A DNA stretch of 22,551 bases from a virus. Shown here one piece after another: positions 15,322 through 22,331 of the stretch. The notes beneath the pieces were generated by a model. That model was not told where the DNA came from and made no database searches. It was given only the letters and a program-made list of their open reading frames with translations. The stretch is taken from positions 1 through 22,551 of the IMG/VR virus record IMGVR_UViG_3300048597_000678. One strand, given 5' to 3'. Every line of letters begins with the position of its first letter. Position 1 is the stretch's first letter. A program made the position numbers and the translations under genes.

Positions 15322-15504
15322 TCACGGTTTCACTTCCTGAAATAATTTCACCTCCCCCTTTGCGATCGCGTCTAGCAACTTCCCTGGAGATCCATCACCA
15401 TCGTACAGATAGCCCATTTTGAAGGCTAGCTCTTTTATTACGTCTGGAGTTTCAGCGTCAACGCGGGCGCTAAATTGAGTTCTATTTTCTGGTTTTCTTG
15501 CCAT
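15322..15504 (-). CDS. RHH-type repressor, likely autoregulatory
   Basis: 60 residues from ATG 15504. An upstream ATG at 15570 is unlikely because it would place the promoter/operator inside the gene. The N-terminal strand RTQFSARVDAET followed by helices (VIKELAFKMGYL, then PGKLLDAIAKGEV) is the usual order of a ribbon-helix-helix protein: a beta strand that reads the major groove as a dimer, then two helices. It is divergent from the SWIM-headed operon, and a 22-bp imperfect inverted repeat spans the shared region, with its left arm reaching the ATG. A minus-strand promoter with GATAAT as -10 would leave only about 8 nt of leader. This suggests a small repressor controlling both itself and the plus-strand operon. 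Confidence 0.6.
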   Translation of the reverse strand: MARKPENRTQFSARVDAETPDVIKELAFKMGYLYDGDGSPGKLLDAIAKGEVKLFQEVKP

Positions 15505-15558
15505 TTCTGGTTGACACTTATTATCTAACTCATCTACAATAAGTGTATACCAGAAATG
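15502..15558. promoter_or_regulatory. Divergent promoter inside a 22-bp inverted repeat (operator)
   Basis: Plus strand: TTGACA (15511-15516), an 18-nt spacer, TACAAT (15535-15540), a near-consensus sigma-70 promoter for the operon at 15620. The arms CATTTCTGGTTGACACTTAT (start of 15502-15523) and CAATAAGTGTATACCAGAAA (start of 15537-15558) are inverted copies over 22 positions with three mismatches. They cover the -35 and -10. The minus strand offers TATACA, 18 nt, GATAAT. Binding of a symmetric dimer-pair here would block both directions. Confidence 0.75.
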
Positions 15559-18119: not shown

Positions 18120-18752
18120 TTATGATTCCCGCTCACTCTGGAGAATCGCGATCGCGGCCTTAAGTGCCTTGAGTTTGCGACCATTGGCGATTCGTTCTTG
18201 CAAAACTGGCACATCCTCAGCGTCAACATATTCCGGCTTTTTCCCAGTAGCAGCACCGAAATGCAGCCGGTGATATTCAGATAAAACCTTTCCGTCCTTA
18301 TTTTTCCTGAACCAACTTTTGAGCCAGCAATCGGTCAGGGCTGTACTACGAAGCTTAGTACACTGCCTTTCAAGCACTGCGATCGCTGTTTGTAGGCCGT
18401 CAAGGTCTGCTGTAGACCGTGCAGGACTGCCATTTTGTAGGCCGTCAAGGTCTGCTGTAGACCGTGCAGGACTGCCATTTTGTAGGCCGTCAAGGTCTGC
18501 TGTAGACCGTGCAGGACTGCCATTTTGTAGGCCGTCAAGGTCTGCTGTAGACCGTGCAGGACTGCCACTAGAAGGCGTAGGGATATGAGCAATATCTTTA
18601 GGGTCGAAACAAACTGTTTTCCCGGTAGCGTCAGACCTGACCGCTATCCTGTCCCCTCGCCATTCAACAACCTCGCCCGTTCTACCCTGACTTGGCCCTA
18701 CCTTCACCCTGACCCGATCGCCCGGTTGCAGCAACAGATCCAACAAATCCAT
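18120..18752 (-). CDS. KOW-like protein with four 15-residue tandem repeats
   Basis: 210 residues. Residues 9-55 (GDRVRVKVGPSQGRTGEVVE and onward) have the strand-loop pattern of a KOW/SH3-like domain, which binds RNA or protein in NusG- and ribosome-type factors. Residues 63-121 are the 15-residue unit GSPARSTADLDGLQN, repeated four times. The C-terminal part contains DCWLKSWFRKNKDGKVLSEY and a helix of Ala/Lys/Leu (KALKAAIAILQ). The repeats are nearly identical at DNA level, so they arose recently and their number may vary between strains. AGGGGG lies upstream of ATG 18752. It is the last gene of the minus-strand operon, 3 nt after its neighbour. Function unknown; KOW similarity is by eye. 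Confidence 0.6.
   Translation of the reverse strand: MDLLDLLLQPGDRVRVKVGPSQGRTGEVVEWRGDRIAVRSDATGKTVCFDPKDIAHIPTPSSGSPARSTADLDGLQNGSPARSTADLDGLQNGSPARSTADLDGLQNGSPARSTADLDGLQTAIAVLERQCTKLRSTALTDCWLKSWFRKNKDGKVLSEYHRLHFGAATGKKPEYVDAEDVPVLQERIANGRKLKALKAAIAILQSERES
18391..18567. repeat. 45-bp tandem repeat, four copies (last one short)
   Basis: Units at 18391-18435, 18436-18480, 18481-18525 and 18526-18567 are essentially identical; each includes GGTCT and AGACC arms able to form a small hairpin. Length is a multiple of three, so the coding frame is kept whatever the copy number. Confidence 0.95.
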
Positions 18753-19657: not shown

Positions 19658-20320
19658 TTAACTGAACTCTACTTTTTTCCTTCCCATGCCCTGCCAATGG
19701 GGGGGGGAGCCGCCTGGATACCAAACCTTTGAGACGGGTAACTGGGTGACGCAATTGTGAGTAAGCCACTGATACCGGATCGATACCATTCCCGGCACCT
19801 CATGAGGAATGCGTACCACCTCAATCACCGCCCGCCGCCCCCAGCGAGGCCAAGCACACGCGGATGATTGAGTATCACTCTCAATCACCGTGCCGTAATG
19901 CGGCCCCTCCATCCCTCCCAGTTCGCAGGTAAAACACACCCAATCCCCGATCGCGAATTGCCGCCCCATCACCCGATCCGGCTTGATCCGCGTCTCCGAT
20001 ATCAGGCCCCGTTGCTTGAGGCGAATAGTCAACCATTTCCCATCCCACCCGGCGATCGCGCCCTTTTCCGGCCCCCTAACTCCCTGAAACCAGATATCAG
20101 TCCCAACCGGGAATAGTGGGGCAGTGGGGAGAGGGAGAGGCGCGATCGCGGGTGGGATGGTTGCATCCGGCGGCGGCGGAATTGGGGCAGACACCCCAGC
20201 GGCGGCTTCAGTGCCCAAATGCTGGATCACCCGTTGCCGCACCTTCCCGCCCTCGCGGTAGTTCTCCACTAACTGGAGATAAACCTTACCTTTAACCTTT
20301 TTGCGCCGGATGAATGCCAT
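19658..20320 (-). CDS. Protein with transposase-like N-terminus and beta-barrel-like body
   Basis: 220 residues. The first 37 residues (MAFIRRKKVKGKVYLQLVEN, then YREGGKVRQRVIQHLG) closely resemble the N-terminal beta unit of IS1634/IS4-type transposases, typically YxxLVESYRxxGKVRQRV. No DDE catalytic domain follows. Instead there is a Pro/Ala-rich linker (about 42-68) and then beta-rich segments with GTDIWFQGVRGPEKGAIAGW and GDWVCFTCELG, resembling SH3/KOW-type barrels, ending in Gly/Pro/Trp-rich sequence. It may be a domesticated DNA- or RNA-binding fusion. The gene overlaps the LuxR-type gene by 29 nt. Identity of the N-terminal segment is fairly clear, the overall function is not. Confidence 0.6.
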   Translation of the reverse strand: MAFIRRKKVKGKVYLQLVENYREGGKVRQRVIQHLGTEAAAGVSAPIPPPPDATIPPAIAPLPLPTAPLFPVGTDIWFQGVRGPEKGAIAGWDGKWLTIRLKQRGLISETRIKPDRVMGRQFAIGDWVCFTCELGGMEGPHYGTVIESDTQSSACAWPRWGRRAVIEVVRIPHEVPGMVSIRYQWLTHNCVTQLPVSKVWYPGGSPPHWQGMGRKKVEFS

Positions 20321-20510
20321 AGTCCAAAACTAACGAGACTGCCAACTGCACCCGGTTTTTCGCCCCGCCCGCTCGCTCTCGCAAGTGCTGAATGTAGTTC
20401 TTCACGGTGGAGATATCCAGGTACAGCGTTGCTGCGATTTCCTGATTACTAGCCCCGTTGACCAGCAATTGAGCCACTTCTTTCTGACGGGGTGTAAGTA
20501 CTTGCTTCAT
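20292..20510 (-). CDS. LuxR/GerE-type HTH regulator, stand-alone
   Basis: 72 residues, nearly only a LuxR-type DNA-binding domain: LTPRQKEVAQLLVNGASNQE (5-24), then IAATLYLDISTVKNYIQHLR (25-44) including the recognition helix, then AKNRVQLAVSLV. All canonical positions (LTxRExEVxxLL, SNxEIAxxL, STVKNxIxxI) are kept, with Gln in place of the usual Glu in the first motif. Without a receiver or sensor domain it probably acts as a constitutive regulator of phage or host promoters. Its leader is exactly the dispersed 12-mer plus AAA before ATG. It overlaps the following gene by 29 nt. Confidence 0.85.
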   Translation of the reverse strand: MKQVLTPRQKEVAQLLVNGASNQEIAATLYLDISTVKNYIQHLRERAGGAKNRVQLAVSLVLDYGIHPAQKG

Positions 20511-20525: not shown

Positions 20526-20805
20526 GCCGTAGTAATCGCCCTATTAATCGACCGAACCAACCCCGGCGGGGTGCATCAAACCGGATCATATTTCCGGTGG
20601 TTTGATTGAAAACAAGTGGAGGCGCTGACTCAGATTTCTTGTAACCCGGTAATTCTTGGCAGTGTTGAACAGCCATAACGATCGCACTCGCGATCGCCAG
20701 CGCCCCGGCCTCGTCTGTCGTCATCTCTTTGCCATTGATAGAAATTGTGATCACGGCTCTGCCATCATTCAGCAATTGCCCTTCAATTTCCGCCCCGTGC
20801 ATCAT
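20521..20805 (-). CDS. Small hypothetical protein, first gene of the minus operon
   Basis: 94 residues. Beta-rich start (IEGQLLNDGRAVITISINGK), helix DEAGALAIASAIVMAVQHCQ, then a segment PPLVFNQTTGNMIRFD and a strongly basic C-terminal tail RRGWFGRLIGRLLRR. The basic amphipathic tail could bind membrane or nucleic acid. No motif is recognised. The stop codon lies inside the 12-mer ahead of the LuxR-type gene, 10 nt away, so these are cotranscribed. ATG at 20805 or 20802 are both possible; there is no good ribosome site. Confidence 0.6.
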   Translation of the reverse strand: MMHGAEIEGQLLNDGRAVITISINGKEMTTDEAGALAIASAIVMAVQHCQELPGYKKSESAPPLVFNQTTGNMIRFDAPRRGWFGRLIGRLLRR

Positions 20806-20829
20806 CTCAATCCCTCAAATAGTGGACAT

Positions 20830-20866
20830 AAAAACAGCGATCGCAGTAGCCCCGCGATCGCTGTTT
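20830..20866 (-). terminator. Terminator with HIP1 in both arms
   Basis: A 13-bp perfect stem AAACAGCGATCGC (20832-20844) / GCGATCGCTGTTT (20854-20866), 9-nt loop, with a run of T on the minus strand. It ends transcription of the RHH/coiled-coil pair just 2 nt past its last stop, before the operon at 20805. Confidence 0.85.
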
Positions 20867-20868
20867 GT

Positions 20869-21252
20869 TTATTCGATATCACCCTCATGATGTCCCAACC
20901 CTGACAACCGATCCTCTAACTCAGCAATCCGACCTAAAGCCCGTTTCCGTTCCCGCTCGTACCATTGCAGGCACTCATCAGCGTTTTGCAGCTTCTCTCT
21001 TTCCTGCTCAAGGAAAAGCTTCAGGATTCCCCCGATAGTGGAATCACCTCGAAATTGCCCGCCCCTAACTCGTTGAGGAAGGCGTTCACGCTCAACCCGA
21101 ACGACTGAGCTAGTGCCTTCAGTCCCTCCCTCGAAGTCTCGCTCACCTTCGCGTTGATCTGAACTTCCTGGTTGTATTTGCCGTGGCTCGCCTTCAGGTA
21201 TCGGCCCGCCTTGTCCTTGTCCTTTTCGCTCATTTGAATCACTGGAACTCAT
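20869..21252 (-). CDS. Coiled-coil ORF whose 5' part overlaps an RHH gene
   Basis: 127 residues from ATG 21252, which has the strong ribosome site GGAG 8 nt upstream. The N-terminal 75 residues are hydrophilic and low in complexity, rich in Gly, Glu, Arg, Gln and Ser (for example SSSDSNERKGQGQGG). The C-terminal 53 residues are a coiled coil (GILKLFLEQEREKLQNADE, WYERERKRALGRIAELED). The 5' part is read in another frame by the RHH gene at 21021-21233, and its odd composition suggests that it is either overprinted or not translated. No ATG exists between the RHH stop and the coiled coil, so the coiled coil can only be made from this ORF or by frameshift from the RHH frame. Confidence 0.45.
   Translation of the reverse strand: MSSSDSNERKGQGQGGPIPEGEPRQIQPGSSDQREGERDFEGGTEGTSSVVRVERERLPQRVRGGQFRGDSTIGGILKLFLEQEREKLQNADECLQWYERERKRALGRIAELEDRLSGLGHHEGDIE
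21021..21233 (-). CDS. RHH-type DNA-binding protein nested in the coiled-coil ORF
   Basis: 70 residues from ATG 21233; an in-frame GTG at 21242 would add three. The sequence EVQINAKVSETSREGLKALA, then QSFGLSVNAFLNELGAG, shows the beta-strand, helix, helix of ribbon-helix-helix proteins, preceded by a Lys/Asp-rich tail such as those of plasmid ParG/CopG types. Codon choice here is ordinary for this genome, which supports this frame over the overlapping one. It has no ribosome site of its own, but the GGAG at about 21261 could serve through coupling. Upstream lies a set of 12-bp half-sites, a fitting target for autoregulation. Confidence 0.65.
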   Translation of the reverse strand: MSEKDKDKAGRYLKASHGKYNQEVQINAKVSETSREGLKALAQSFGLSVNAFLNELGAGNFEVIPLSGES

Positions 21253-21268
21253 TTCTTAATCTCCAAAT

Positions 21269-21357
21269 CTTATAGAAAATACTAGCAAACATCTTCTATA
21301 AGTTGTATGGTTTTACTACACATCTTCTATAAGATATGGTTTATCTTATAGAAGATG
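21269..21357. promoter_or_regulatory. Operator array of ATCTTCTATAAG half-sites, divergent promoter region
   Basis: Half-sites: inverted with one mismatch at 21269-21280, direct at 21291-21302 and 21322-21333, inverted at 21345-21356. The last two extend to a perfect 16-bp inverted repeat, CATCTTCTATAAGATA (21321-21336) with TATCTTATAGAAGATG (21342-21357), 5-nt centre. The TATAAG cores overlap possible -10 elements in both directions. It lies between the RHH pair (minus) and the gene at 21442 (plus). Confidence 0.7.
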
Positions 21358-21378
21358 GCTTACGAACTGCATCCAATA

Positions 21379-21406
21379 AACGATCGCTCGTCACACAGCG
21401 ATCGTT
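21379..21406 (+). other. HIP1-type hairpin in the leader of the gene at 21442
   Basis: A 10-bp perfect stem AACGATCGCT (21379-21388) / AGCGATCGTT (21397-21406), 8-nt loop, no T-run. Possible attenuator or simply a leader hairpin. Confidence 0.45.
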
Positions 21407-21441
21407 CTTCTCTAAAACCTGAAAGAAAGGGCTAAAGATTA

Positions 21442-21741
21442 ATGAAACCAGTGTTAATCACAACCGACTCTGATCGGCGGGGCGTGTTTTTTGGTTATAC
21501 GGAATGTGATCTAGAGAAGGCGATCGATGCAGGAGTGATCGATCTAGTCGGTTTTAGAAACTGCATCTATTGGTCTAGATCTGTTGGGGGCGTGTTTGGC
21601 CTTGCAGAATCCGGCCCTAGCCTAGACTGCAAAATCGGGGCAAAGGTTGACAGGCGGGCTTACTTTAACGGGGTCACGTTTGTTTCCGAGGTTTCAGATA
21701 TTGCCGTCCAAGCGTGGGAGAGCGCCCCATGCGTCGAATAG
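21442..21741 (+). CDS. DUF6948-type small phage protein
   Basis: 99 residues. Key pieces: KPVLITTDSDRRGVFFGY at the start, FRNCIYWSRSVGGVFGLA in the middle, GP and CKIGAKVD next, then ITSV-like VTFVSEVSDIAVQAWESAPC. This pattern (RGVFFGxL, RNCIYW, LAxxGP, CxxG, AxxxW) is one I recall for a small phage protein family of unknown function, annotated DUF6948. It is probably a compact beta-rich protein. The leader contains GAAAGG upstream of the ATG. It overlaps the Gly-X gene by 13 nt, an association I also recall from other phages. The role is not known. Confidence 0.7.
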   Translation: MKPVLITTDSDRRGVFFGYTECDLEKAIDAGVIDLVGFRNCIYWSRSVGGVFGLAESGPSLDCKIGAKVDRRAYFNGVTFVSEVSDIAVQAWESAPCVE

Positions 21742-22046
21742 GTCAAATTAACGACGGCTACGGCTTCGGCGACGGCGACGGCTTCGGCTTCGGCTCCGGC
21801 GACGGCTACGGCTCCGGCGACGGCTACGGCTCCGGCGACGGCTACGGCGACGGCTACGGCTCCGGCTACGGCTCCGGCTACGGCGACGGCTACGGCTCCG
21901 GCTCCGGCTACGGCGACGGCTCCGGCTACGGCTACGGCGACGGCTCCGGCTCCGGCTACGGCGACGGCGACGGCTCCGGCTCCGGCTACGGCTACGGCGA
22001 CGGCGACGGCTACGGCTACGGCGACGGCGACGGCGACGACCAATAA
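21729..22046 (+). CDS. Gly-X repeat protein (X = Tyr, Asp, Ser or Phe)
   Basis: 105 residues from ATG 21729, a start nested 13 nt inside the preceding gene (an ATG at 21714 is less plausible). After MRRIGQIND there are 47 consecutive Gly-X pairs, X being Tyr, Asp, Ser or Phe only, then DQ. Such a chain cannot form a normal globular fold; it is probably flexible, acidic (about one Asp per three pairs), and may phase-separate, bind metal or sugars, or act as a silk-like filler. Every X codon has the form NNC (TAC, GAC, TCC, TTC), each reachable from another by one base change. Phages are known to carry similar proteins, usually unannotated. Function unknown. Confidence 0.65.
   Translation: MRRIGQINDGYGFGDGDGFGFGSGDGYGSGDGYGSGDGYGDGYGSGYGSGYGDGYGSGSGYGDGSGYGYGDGSGSGYGDGDGSGSGYGYGDGDGYGYGDGDGDDQ
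21756..22037 (+). repeat. Hexanucleotide repeat GGCNNC, 47 units
   Basis: 282 bp made only of GGCTAC, GGCGAC, GGCTCC and GGCTTC in irregular order. All six frames except those with chance stops stay open, which explains antisense Ala-Val frames here. Confidence 0.95.
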
Positions 22047-22049
22047 CTT

Positions 22050-22082
22050 GATCGGGCTACTACGGCCCGATCGCTCTTTCTC
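22050..22082 (+). terminator. Weak terminator after the Gly-X gene
   Basis: Stem GATCGGGC (22050-22057) / GCCCGATC (22065-22072), 7-nt loop, followed by GCTCTTTCTCTC. Pyrimidine-rich rather than T-rich. Confidence 0.5.
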
Positions 22083-22097
22083 TCACCTGAATCACCT

Positions 22098-22331
22098 ATG
22101 CAAACTACTGACATCCAACTATCACCGCCCAACATGACGAAAATCACCACCGCGCTGATTAAAGCCGGGTTTCACATCGAGCGAAAGCCGACCGAACCCG
22201 AACGGCTTTACATCGCAGGCGAAAACTACACCATTACCTGCTACTGGGATGAGGATCTTCAGCAATGGCGGCTCTATCCCTACGACGATCGCGTTTCTCG
22301 CACCGTCAGAGAGGCATTAACCGATGAATAA
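22098..22331 (+). CDS. Small hypothetical protein
   Basis: 77 residues: a helix MTKITTALIKAGFHIERKP, then a beta hairpin LYIAGENYTITCYWDEDLQQ followed by WRLYPYDDRVSRTVREAL. This is a small alpha/beta domain of the kind common in phage accessory genes. No motif is recognised. It overlaps the next gene by 8 nt, so they are coupled. The start has no clear ribosome site; the ATG follows a pyrimidine-rich leader just after the hairpin at 22050. Function unknown. Confidence 0.55.
   Translation: MQTTDIQLSPPNMTKITTALIKAGFHIERKPTEPERLYIAGENYTITCYWDEDLQQWRLYPYDDRVSRTVREALTDE

Follow-up and report, generated by a model that had tools for sequence, protein, structure and literature searches.

RHH repressors of the CopG, Arc, and Mnt type have multi-site operators before their own genes, and partition proteins of the ParG and omega type are RHH proteins with iterated DNA sites. 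We know of no frameshifted coiled-coil form or overlapping frame described for CopG, Arc, or Mnt, and no frameshifted or dual-coded RHH regulator was found in the open-access literature that we searched. To our knowledge, very little has been learned about repressor-operator systems in temperate phages of cyanobacteria. FseA, a frameshifted regulator to which we return below, is not known to be an RHH protein. As described in an excerpt of PMC5009743, −1 frameshifting fuses a regulator ORF to a downstream domain in elements of the IS1/IS3 type, FseA (msi172-msi171), an ICE excision activator, is made through a +1 frameshift, and −1 frameshifting occurs in cro, a lysis-lysogeny regulator gene of Lactobacillus phage A2.

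The window analyzed here is a 22,551-base virus record given in full (G000). Four 14-bp near-palindromes with the consensus ATCTTCTATAAGAT lie at 21267-21356, two per strand and each with 0 or 1 mismatch (1, 1, 0, and 0 from left to right); as read from the sequence, each copy is itself a near-palindrome with 6 of 7 base pairs. The site closest to the RHH gene (ATTTTCTATAAGAT; 21267-21280, minus strand) is followed by ATCTTCTATAAGTT (21291-21304, plus strand) and by two exact copies of ATCTTCTATAAGAT (21322-21335, plus strand, and 21343-21356, minus strand), which provide the left and right arms of a perfect 16-bp inverted repeat (21321-21336 and 21342-21357; arms 100% complementary, gap of 5 nt). 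A preliminary description had reported a four-site array with a perfect 16-bp inverted repeat and half-sites twice direct and twice inverted; all four 14-mers, their orientations, and the complementary arms were recovered, and the location given (21269-21357) was right, with coordinates off by up to 2 bases. Site centers are 22, 31, and 23 bp apart, near 2, 3, and 2 helical turns, a pattern that is suggestive only.

With up to 2 mismatches, ATCTTCTATAAG matched the window 8 times versus 0.90 expected, a count reached in 0 of 100 shuffles; two of these 8 matches are the same near-palindromic sites on the opposite strand, and two lie elsewhere in the window. The upstream-region repeat count (4 sites) was also matched by 0 of 100 dinucleotide shuffles, and a chance origin of the four-site array is excluded. 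Within the record, the array motif at up to 1 mismatch is restricted to the array (4 places). The array fills the space from which the leftward RHH gene (ATG at 21233) and a rightward DUF6948 gene (21442) diverge, and a scan of 20700-22200 found no sigma-70-like promoter. A search of viral contigs for CTTCTATAAG-N(0-30)-CTTATAGAAG returned 5 stretches, all within the ORFs of other proteins, which we judged to be chance occurrences.

The DUF6948 gene (21442-21741, plus strand; Pfam PF22253, E 6.1e-13) is the first gene beyond the array and is followed by an ORF of glycine-alternating repeats (GDGYGSG...; 21714-22046, plus strand). The window shares this succession of DUF6948 and a Gly-alternating repeat ORF (GDGYGSGYG...) with 14 of 16 IMG/VR loci (L018-L033), one of the two misses having just 34 bases beyond the gene, and the pair appears to form a conserved two-gene cassette in varied phages. 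An RHH-profile check of the 16 DUF6948 neighborhoods gave no match, and DUF6948 was not named in the open-access literature searched. Elsewhere in the window, the gene at 18120-18752 contains several copies of the in-frame repeat NGSPARSTADLDGLQ (18335-18592). A second RHH gene has its own operator-like inverted repeat at 15502-15558 (21-nt arms, 90% complementary), and this repeat differs from the array, as the preliminary description had said. In this second RHH region (15322-15558), the repeat overlaps TTGACA (15511-15516) and, 18 nt further on, TACAAT (15535-15540), a strong-looking candidate for a rightward promoter of the genes from 15620.

The likely ligand of the array is the 70-aa product of the adjoining RHH gene (21021-21233, minus strand; ATG at 21233, stop TGA at 21023-21021), whose GC content by codon position (0.54/0.38/0.76) is the pattern of a coding frame. 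Alone, this protein scored below all Pfam cutoffs (NikA-like, E 0.011), and its single-sequence model (strand 23-26, helices 35-44 and 49-57, pLDDT 69.7) had 0 PDB matches at an E value of ≤0.001 in a Foldseek search. A six-frame search of 386 cyanobacterial genomes identified a cellular relative that is 35% identical and has a perfect 32-bp palindrome in front, and profiles derived from the hits then recovered many more genes of the family. Family profile A3 matched the CopG structures 2cpg and 1b01 with a modest E value of 2e-4, two low-complexity or designed chains scoring equal or higher, and 6 of 13 family members matched Pfam RHH_1. On the basis of these profile matches, we assign the window protein to the RHH (MetJ/Arc/CopG) family. 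No close relative was found among the viral contigs, genome contigs, or phages searched, a plasmid search yielded two weak Calothrix matches, and the RHH gene is absent from the two nearest viral relatives of the window (IMG/VR contigs, 76% in terminase). The ends of a 23.4-kb relative (G002; L010 and L011) overlap, with 796 of 830 positions equal without gaps, which suggests that the genome, of about 22.5 kb, is circular or circularly permuted.

The RHH genes of the window and of its best cellular relative end alike, with GGGGGAATCCT and with AAG one base later, and in both, the −1 frame past this shared end reads GGILK and continues into a coiled-coil-like tail. The putative slippery heptamer of the window, G_GGG_GAA (21027-21033, minus strand), is in the RHH frame just before the stop, being followed by TCC TGA. 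A possible stimulatory hairpin (AGCTT...AAGCT; 20990-21020, minus strand) begins 6 nt past the heptamer and is modest (z −1.45). The tail occupies the −1 frame at 20869-21026 (minus strand; stop at 20869-20871), and the predicted frameshift product has 121 aa.

About 15 of 61 short-tailed genes in a first set had the same heptamer layout. In a sample of 91 short RHH genes, 54 had an in-phase heptamer near the stop, whereas each of the other two phases had it in one gene. The sample consisted of distinct, short-tailed, profile-selected genes, and 54 of 91 is not a prevalence or natural frequency because the collecting profiles favor the frameshift type; the contrast between phases is independent of this bias. 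Duplicates and genes with >45 residues beyond the RHH domain were left out of the counts, and the loci fetched by hand were picked from profile match lists mostly for short open frames. The 54 heptamers were GGGGGAA (33), GGGAAAA (14), GGGGGAG (3), GGGAAAC (2), GGGAAAG (1), and AAAAAAG (1). L118 (heptamer AAATTTA, with a tail unlike the others) and L081 (−1 frame blocked right at the stop) are probable chance inclusions, each in its set of 54. By our own reasoning, GGGGGAA is one base off the strict X_XXY_YYZ form and would involve G-U re-pairing, whereas GGGAAAA is canonical. Gly-Glu and Gly-Lys pairs near the end of the 54 genes are written almost only as GGG GAA (38) or GGA AAA (14), a codon-pair bias that the 37 other RHH genes do not have.

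The tail is conserved as well: a profile built from the other tails found the tail of the window with an E value of 3.2e-8, the best of 535 window frames (32.2 bits, versus 0.3 for the reversed sequence and 17.3 for the top of 200 shuffles). A hairpin with a 7-bp stem starting 6 nt past the heptamer is common to seven members, with 87.8% of cells paired and 5 cells changed on both sides; its covariation score of 0.245 was reached by 0 of 500 shuffles and fell when the partner was slid. These seven members were chosen for a visible hairpin, L102 among them is misaligned at its loop, which is longer, and since the hairpin arms are also coding, amino acid conservation may supply part of the covariation signal. 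No clear hairpin was found in the GGGAAAA group, and that of the window is weak. Taken as sequence patterns, these features point to apparent −1 frameshifting in the window RHH gene and its kin. That the frame break stems from a G run misread during sequencing or from decay of a former single RHH-coil gene might be suspected from the G5 run in the heptamer and from the metagenomic source of the contig, but we give this almost no credence, as the same-phase break recurs in 54 genes from many genomes and with several heptamer types.

We also detected a second open frame across the RHH gene. In the window, a 127-aa ORF in the −1 frame (20869-21252, minus strand) encloses the entire RHH gene out of frame, and its ATG at 21252 is preceded by GGAG (21261-21264). 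The −1 frame is free of stops across the whole RHH gene in 42 of the 54 heptamer genes versus 0 of 37 others; no gene of the final set has an open +1 frame. Among the genes of the first set, the −1 frame was open in 14/14, compared with 0/26 control RHH genes. Under synonymous shuffling, the probability of an open −1 frame ranged from 0 to 0.037 per gene for these first 14 genes, with a log10 sum of −31.7 that combines nonindependent genes and leaves out L060 (ATG not found). A −1-frame start is present at most 31 nt upstream in 39 of the 42 open-frame genes and in 2 of the 37 others; with a Shine-Dalgarno (SD)-like motif, the counts are 33 of 42 and 0 of 37. These SD-like starts lie 7 to 22 nt upstream of the RHH start, and the RHH ATG has an SD-like motif of its own in 10 of 42. 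In L069 and L097, conservation across the overlap is 0.33 in the −1 frame versus 0.75 in the RHH frame. It appears that the openness of the −1 frame and its start are kept while its residues are nearly free, and that the RHH gene is apparently dual coded.

The open frame could also be explained by two overlapping genes with no frameshifting, the 127-aa ORF being translated from its own start and the RHH protein from an internal ATG, so that the heptamer would merely reflect conserved residues (Leu-Gly-Glu/Lys in one frame and Gly-Gly/Lys in the other). The open frames and the contrast in SD-like motifs between the two starts are what such an arrangement would lead one to expect. Against it, stops interrupt the −1 frame inside the RHH gene in 12 of the 54, almost all of which retain the heptamer and tail, glycine is encoded nearly always by the slippery codons, the covarying hairpin sits at a fixed distance, and the residues of the overlap are poorly conserved in the −1 frame. 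We therefore regard two independent genes as unlikely and favor −1 frameshifting; the overlapping product is kept in the explanation because frameshifting alone requires neither an open −1 frame nor its start.

Arrays in the same upstream position accompany the kin of the window gene. At least 3 upstream sites were found for 30 of the 54 heptamer-type RHH genes, for 4 of the remaining 37, and for 11 of 168 random pieces; by the same fixed statistic, 24 of the 54 have fewer than 3. In the first set, scored with 12-mers at up to 2 mismatches, 12 of 15 genes had at least 3 sites versus 1 of 26 controls. The motifs differ from gene to gene as private repeats, and below 70% identity, array likeness rises weakly with RHH similarity (Mantel rho 0.13, 2/500 permutations; 52 members having both an ATG and a GGG heptamer, of which 50 entered the permutation), compared with a rho of 0.02 (121/500 permutations) for a control region. 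This pattern resembles a private operator sequence per element, as in prophage immunity modules, and the likeliest role of the window array is that of the 70-aa RHH protein's own operator. The preliminary description had likewise attributed an operator-like array to the adjoining 70-residue RHH gene, and the arrays of the kin bear it out.

Other DNA-binding genes lie close by, among them a small LuxR/GerE-type protein a few genes downstream of the RHH gene (20292-20510; Pfam GerE, E 7e-13), and the array might be bound by this protein, by the second RHH protein, or by a host protein. We consider this quite improbable, given that the arrays accompany this RHH type in many different neighborhoods, that they vary, albeit weakly, with RHH similarity, and that the second RHH gene owns a different repeat. 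The array repeats also fold well as a single strand (−18.1 kcal/mol, z −6.1), and replication genes occur near some kin, as might be expected of replication-origin iterons or a cruciform; the arrays track the RHH gene amid varied neighbors, which makes a role of that kind very improbable.

An RHH protein with iterated sites beside its gene is also the arrangement of type Ib partition systems, and the preliminary description had offered a plasmid-like partition locus (ParG/centromere) as one possibility, while noting that no ParA-type ATPase was seen. That observation held: PF13614 (ParA-type) matched 0 of 3 records (the window and its two relatives) versus 14/14 control genomes, the only Walker-A-like motif in frames of >100 codons is in the terminase (TerL), and ParA was likewise missing from the ten kin neighbors tested in Pfam. 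The absence is not absolute because the record is incomplete, but with no ParA-type gene found, partition is unsupported and, in our assessment, very improbable. The earlier interpretation thus stands as to an RHH operator array and falls as to partition, and it had overlooked the −1 frameshift signal and the reading frame overlapping the RHH gene.

Among 14 larger kin contexts, one of two integrase clusters (Pfam Phage_integrase) is present in 10 and a D5_N/DUF3854-type cluster in 3, and the ten kin neighbors tested in Pfam include integrases, primase-helicase, DnaB, amidase, KGK, and IS110-like proteins. In 6 of the 14 (L078, L120, L121, L122, L123, and L125), the frameshift-type RHH gene has an IS110-like transposase gene within a few kilobases. 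A Desmonostoc contig (74,298 bases), of which the heptamer-type RHH gene L102 was read as part, encodes relatives of the window terminase (49%), portal (28%), capsid (26%), and HNH (52%) proteins. Because this contig bears both phage-protein relatives and an RHH gene, cyanobacterial genomes carry relatives of the window phage. None of 4 further IMG/VR RHH loci and none of 6 named records from phages or plasmids has the frameshift-type gene, so that among the virus records examined it occurs only in that of the window; a frameshift tail of the window type is absent from Planktothrix phage PaV-LD and from the five RHH genes of plasmids. At L162 (G565:C427, entered under L141), four tandem RHH matches lie in about 1.4 kb, at least 3 of them with the heptamer, and RHH pairs also occur at L143, L148, L150, L168, and L170.

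We think it probable that the array is the operator of the left-hand RHH regulator, that this regulator comes in two lengths through frameshifting, and that, in a cyanobacterial phage, the module acts as an early switch or as one controlling lysogeny. With RHH dimers bound to the four near-palindromes, the regulator would repress its own leftward gene and, probably, the divergent DUF6948 operon. Normal decoding would yield the 70-aa RHH protein, a −1 ribosomal frameshift at G_GGG_GAA would yield the 121-aa RHH protein with its coiled-coil-like tail, and initiation at the ATG at 21252, with its upstream Shine-Dalgarno-like motif, may give a third product read in the −1 frame throughout. More tentatively, we speculate that one mRNA gives rise to an RHH repressor, a frameshifted RHH-coil repressor, and an overlapping-frame coil protein that is possibly an antirepressor, an elaboration that we find doubtful but plausible. 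The overlapping-frame protein would be a coil with a free-running N terminus and no DNA-binding domain, and it could act as an antirepressor by forming mixed coils. If such a dual-coded switch exists, lysogeny and immunity in many prophages of cyanobacteria would be governed by the frameshift rate and the choice of start.

This type of RHH gene, with its operator array, is recognizable, directly testable, and present in many cyanobacterial genomes. It appears to be a rare case of conserved −1 frameshifting in a transcription regulator, and a second frame open over the whole DNA-binding domain would be a natural dual-coding sequence under measurable selection. Like CopG, Arc, and Mnt, the window has a small RHH protein adjoining repeated near-palindromic sites. 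The iterated sites are shared with ParG and omega, whose ParA partner was not found in the window or its two relatives. The frameshift in cro of phage A2, according to the excerpt of PMC5009743, was seen with Escherichia coli decoding, yields a product only 12 aa shorter, and is apparently irrelevant to infection of Lactobacillus casei, unlike the switch proposed here. FseA, in the same excerpted source (PMC5009743), is similarly a transcription regulator of a mobile element made via frameshifting, but it is an activator made by a +1 shift, whereas the window candidate is an RHH protein with a putative −1 shift. As in the IS1/IS3-type elements of that excerpt (PMC5009743), a domain would be added by the frameshift; instead of a transposase domain, the window gene would add a coiled-coil-like tail, and unlike in those elements, its whole first ORF is also open in a second frame.
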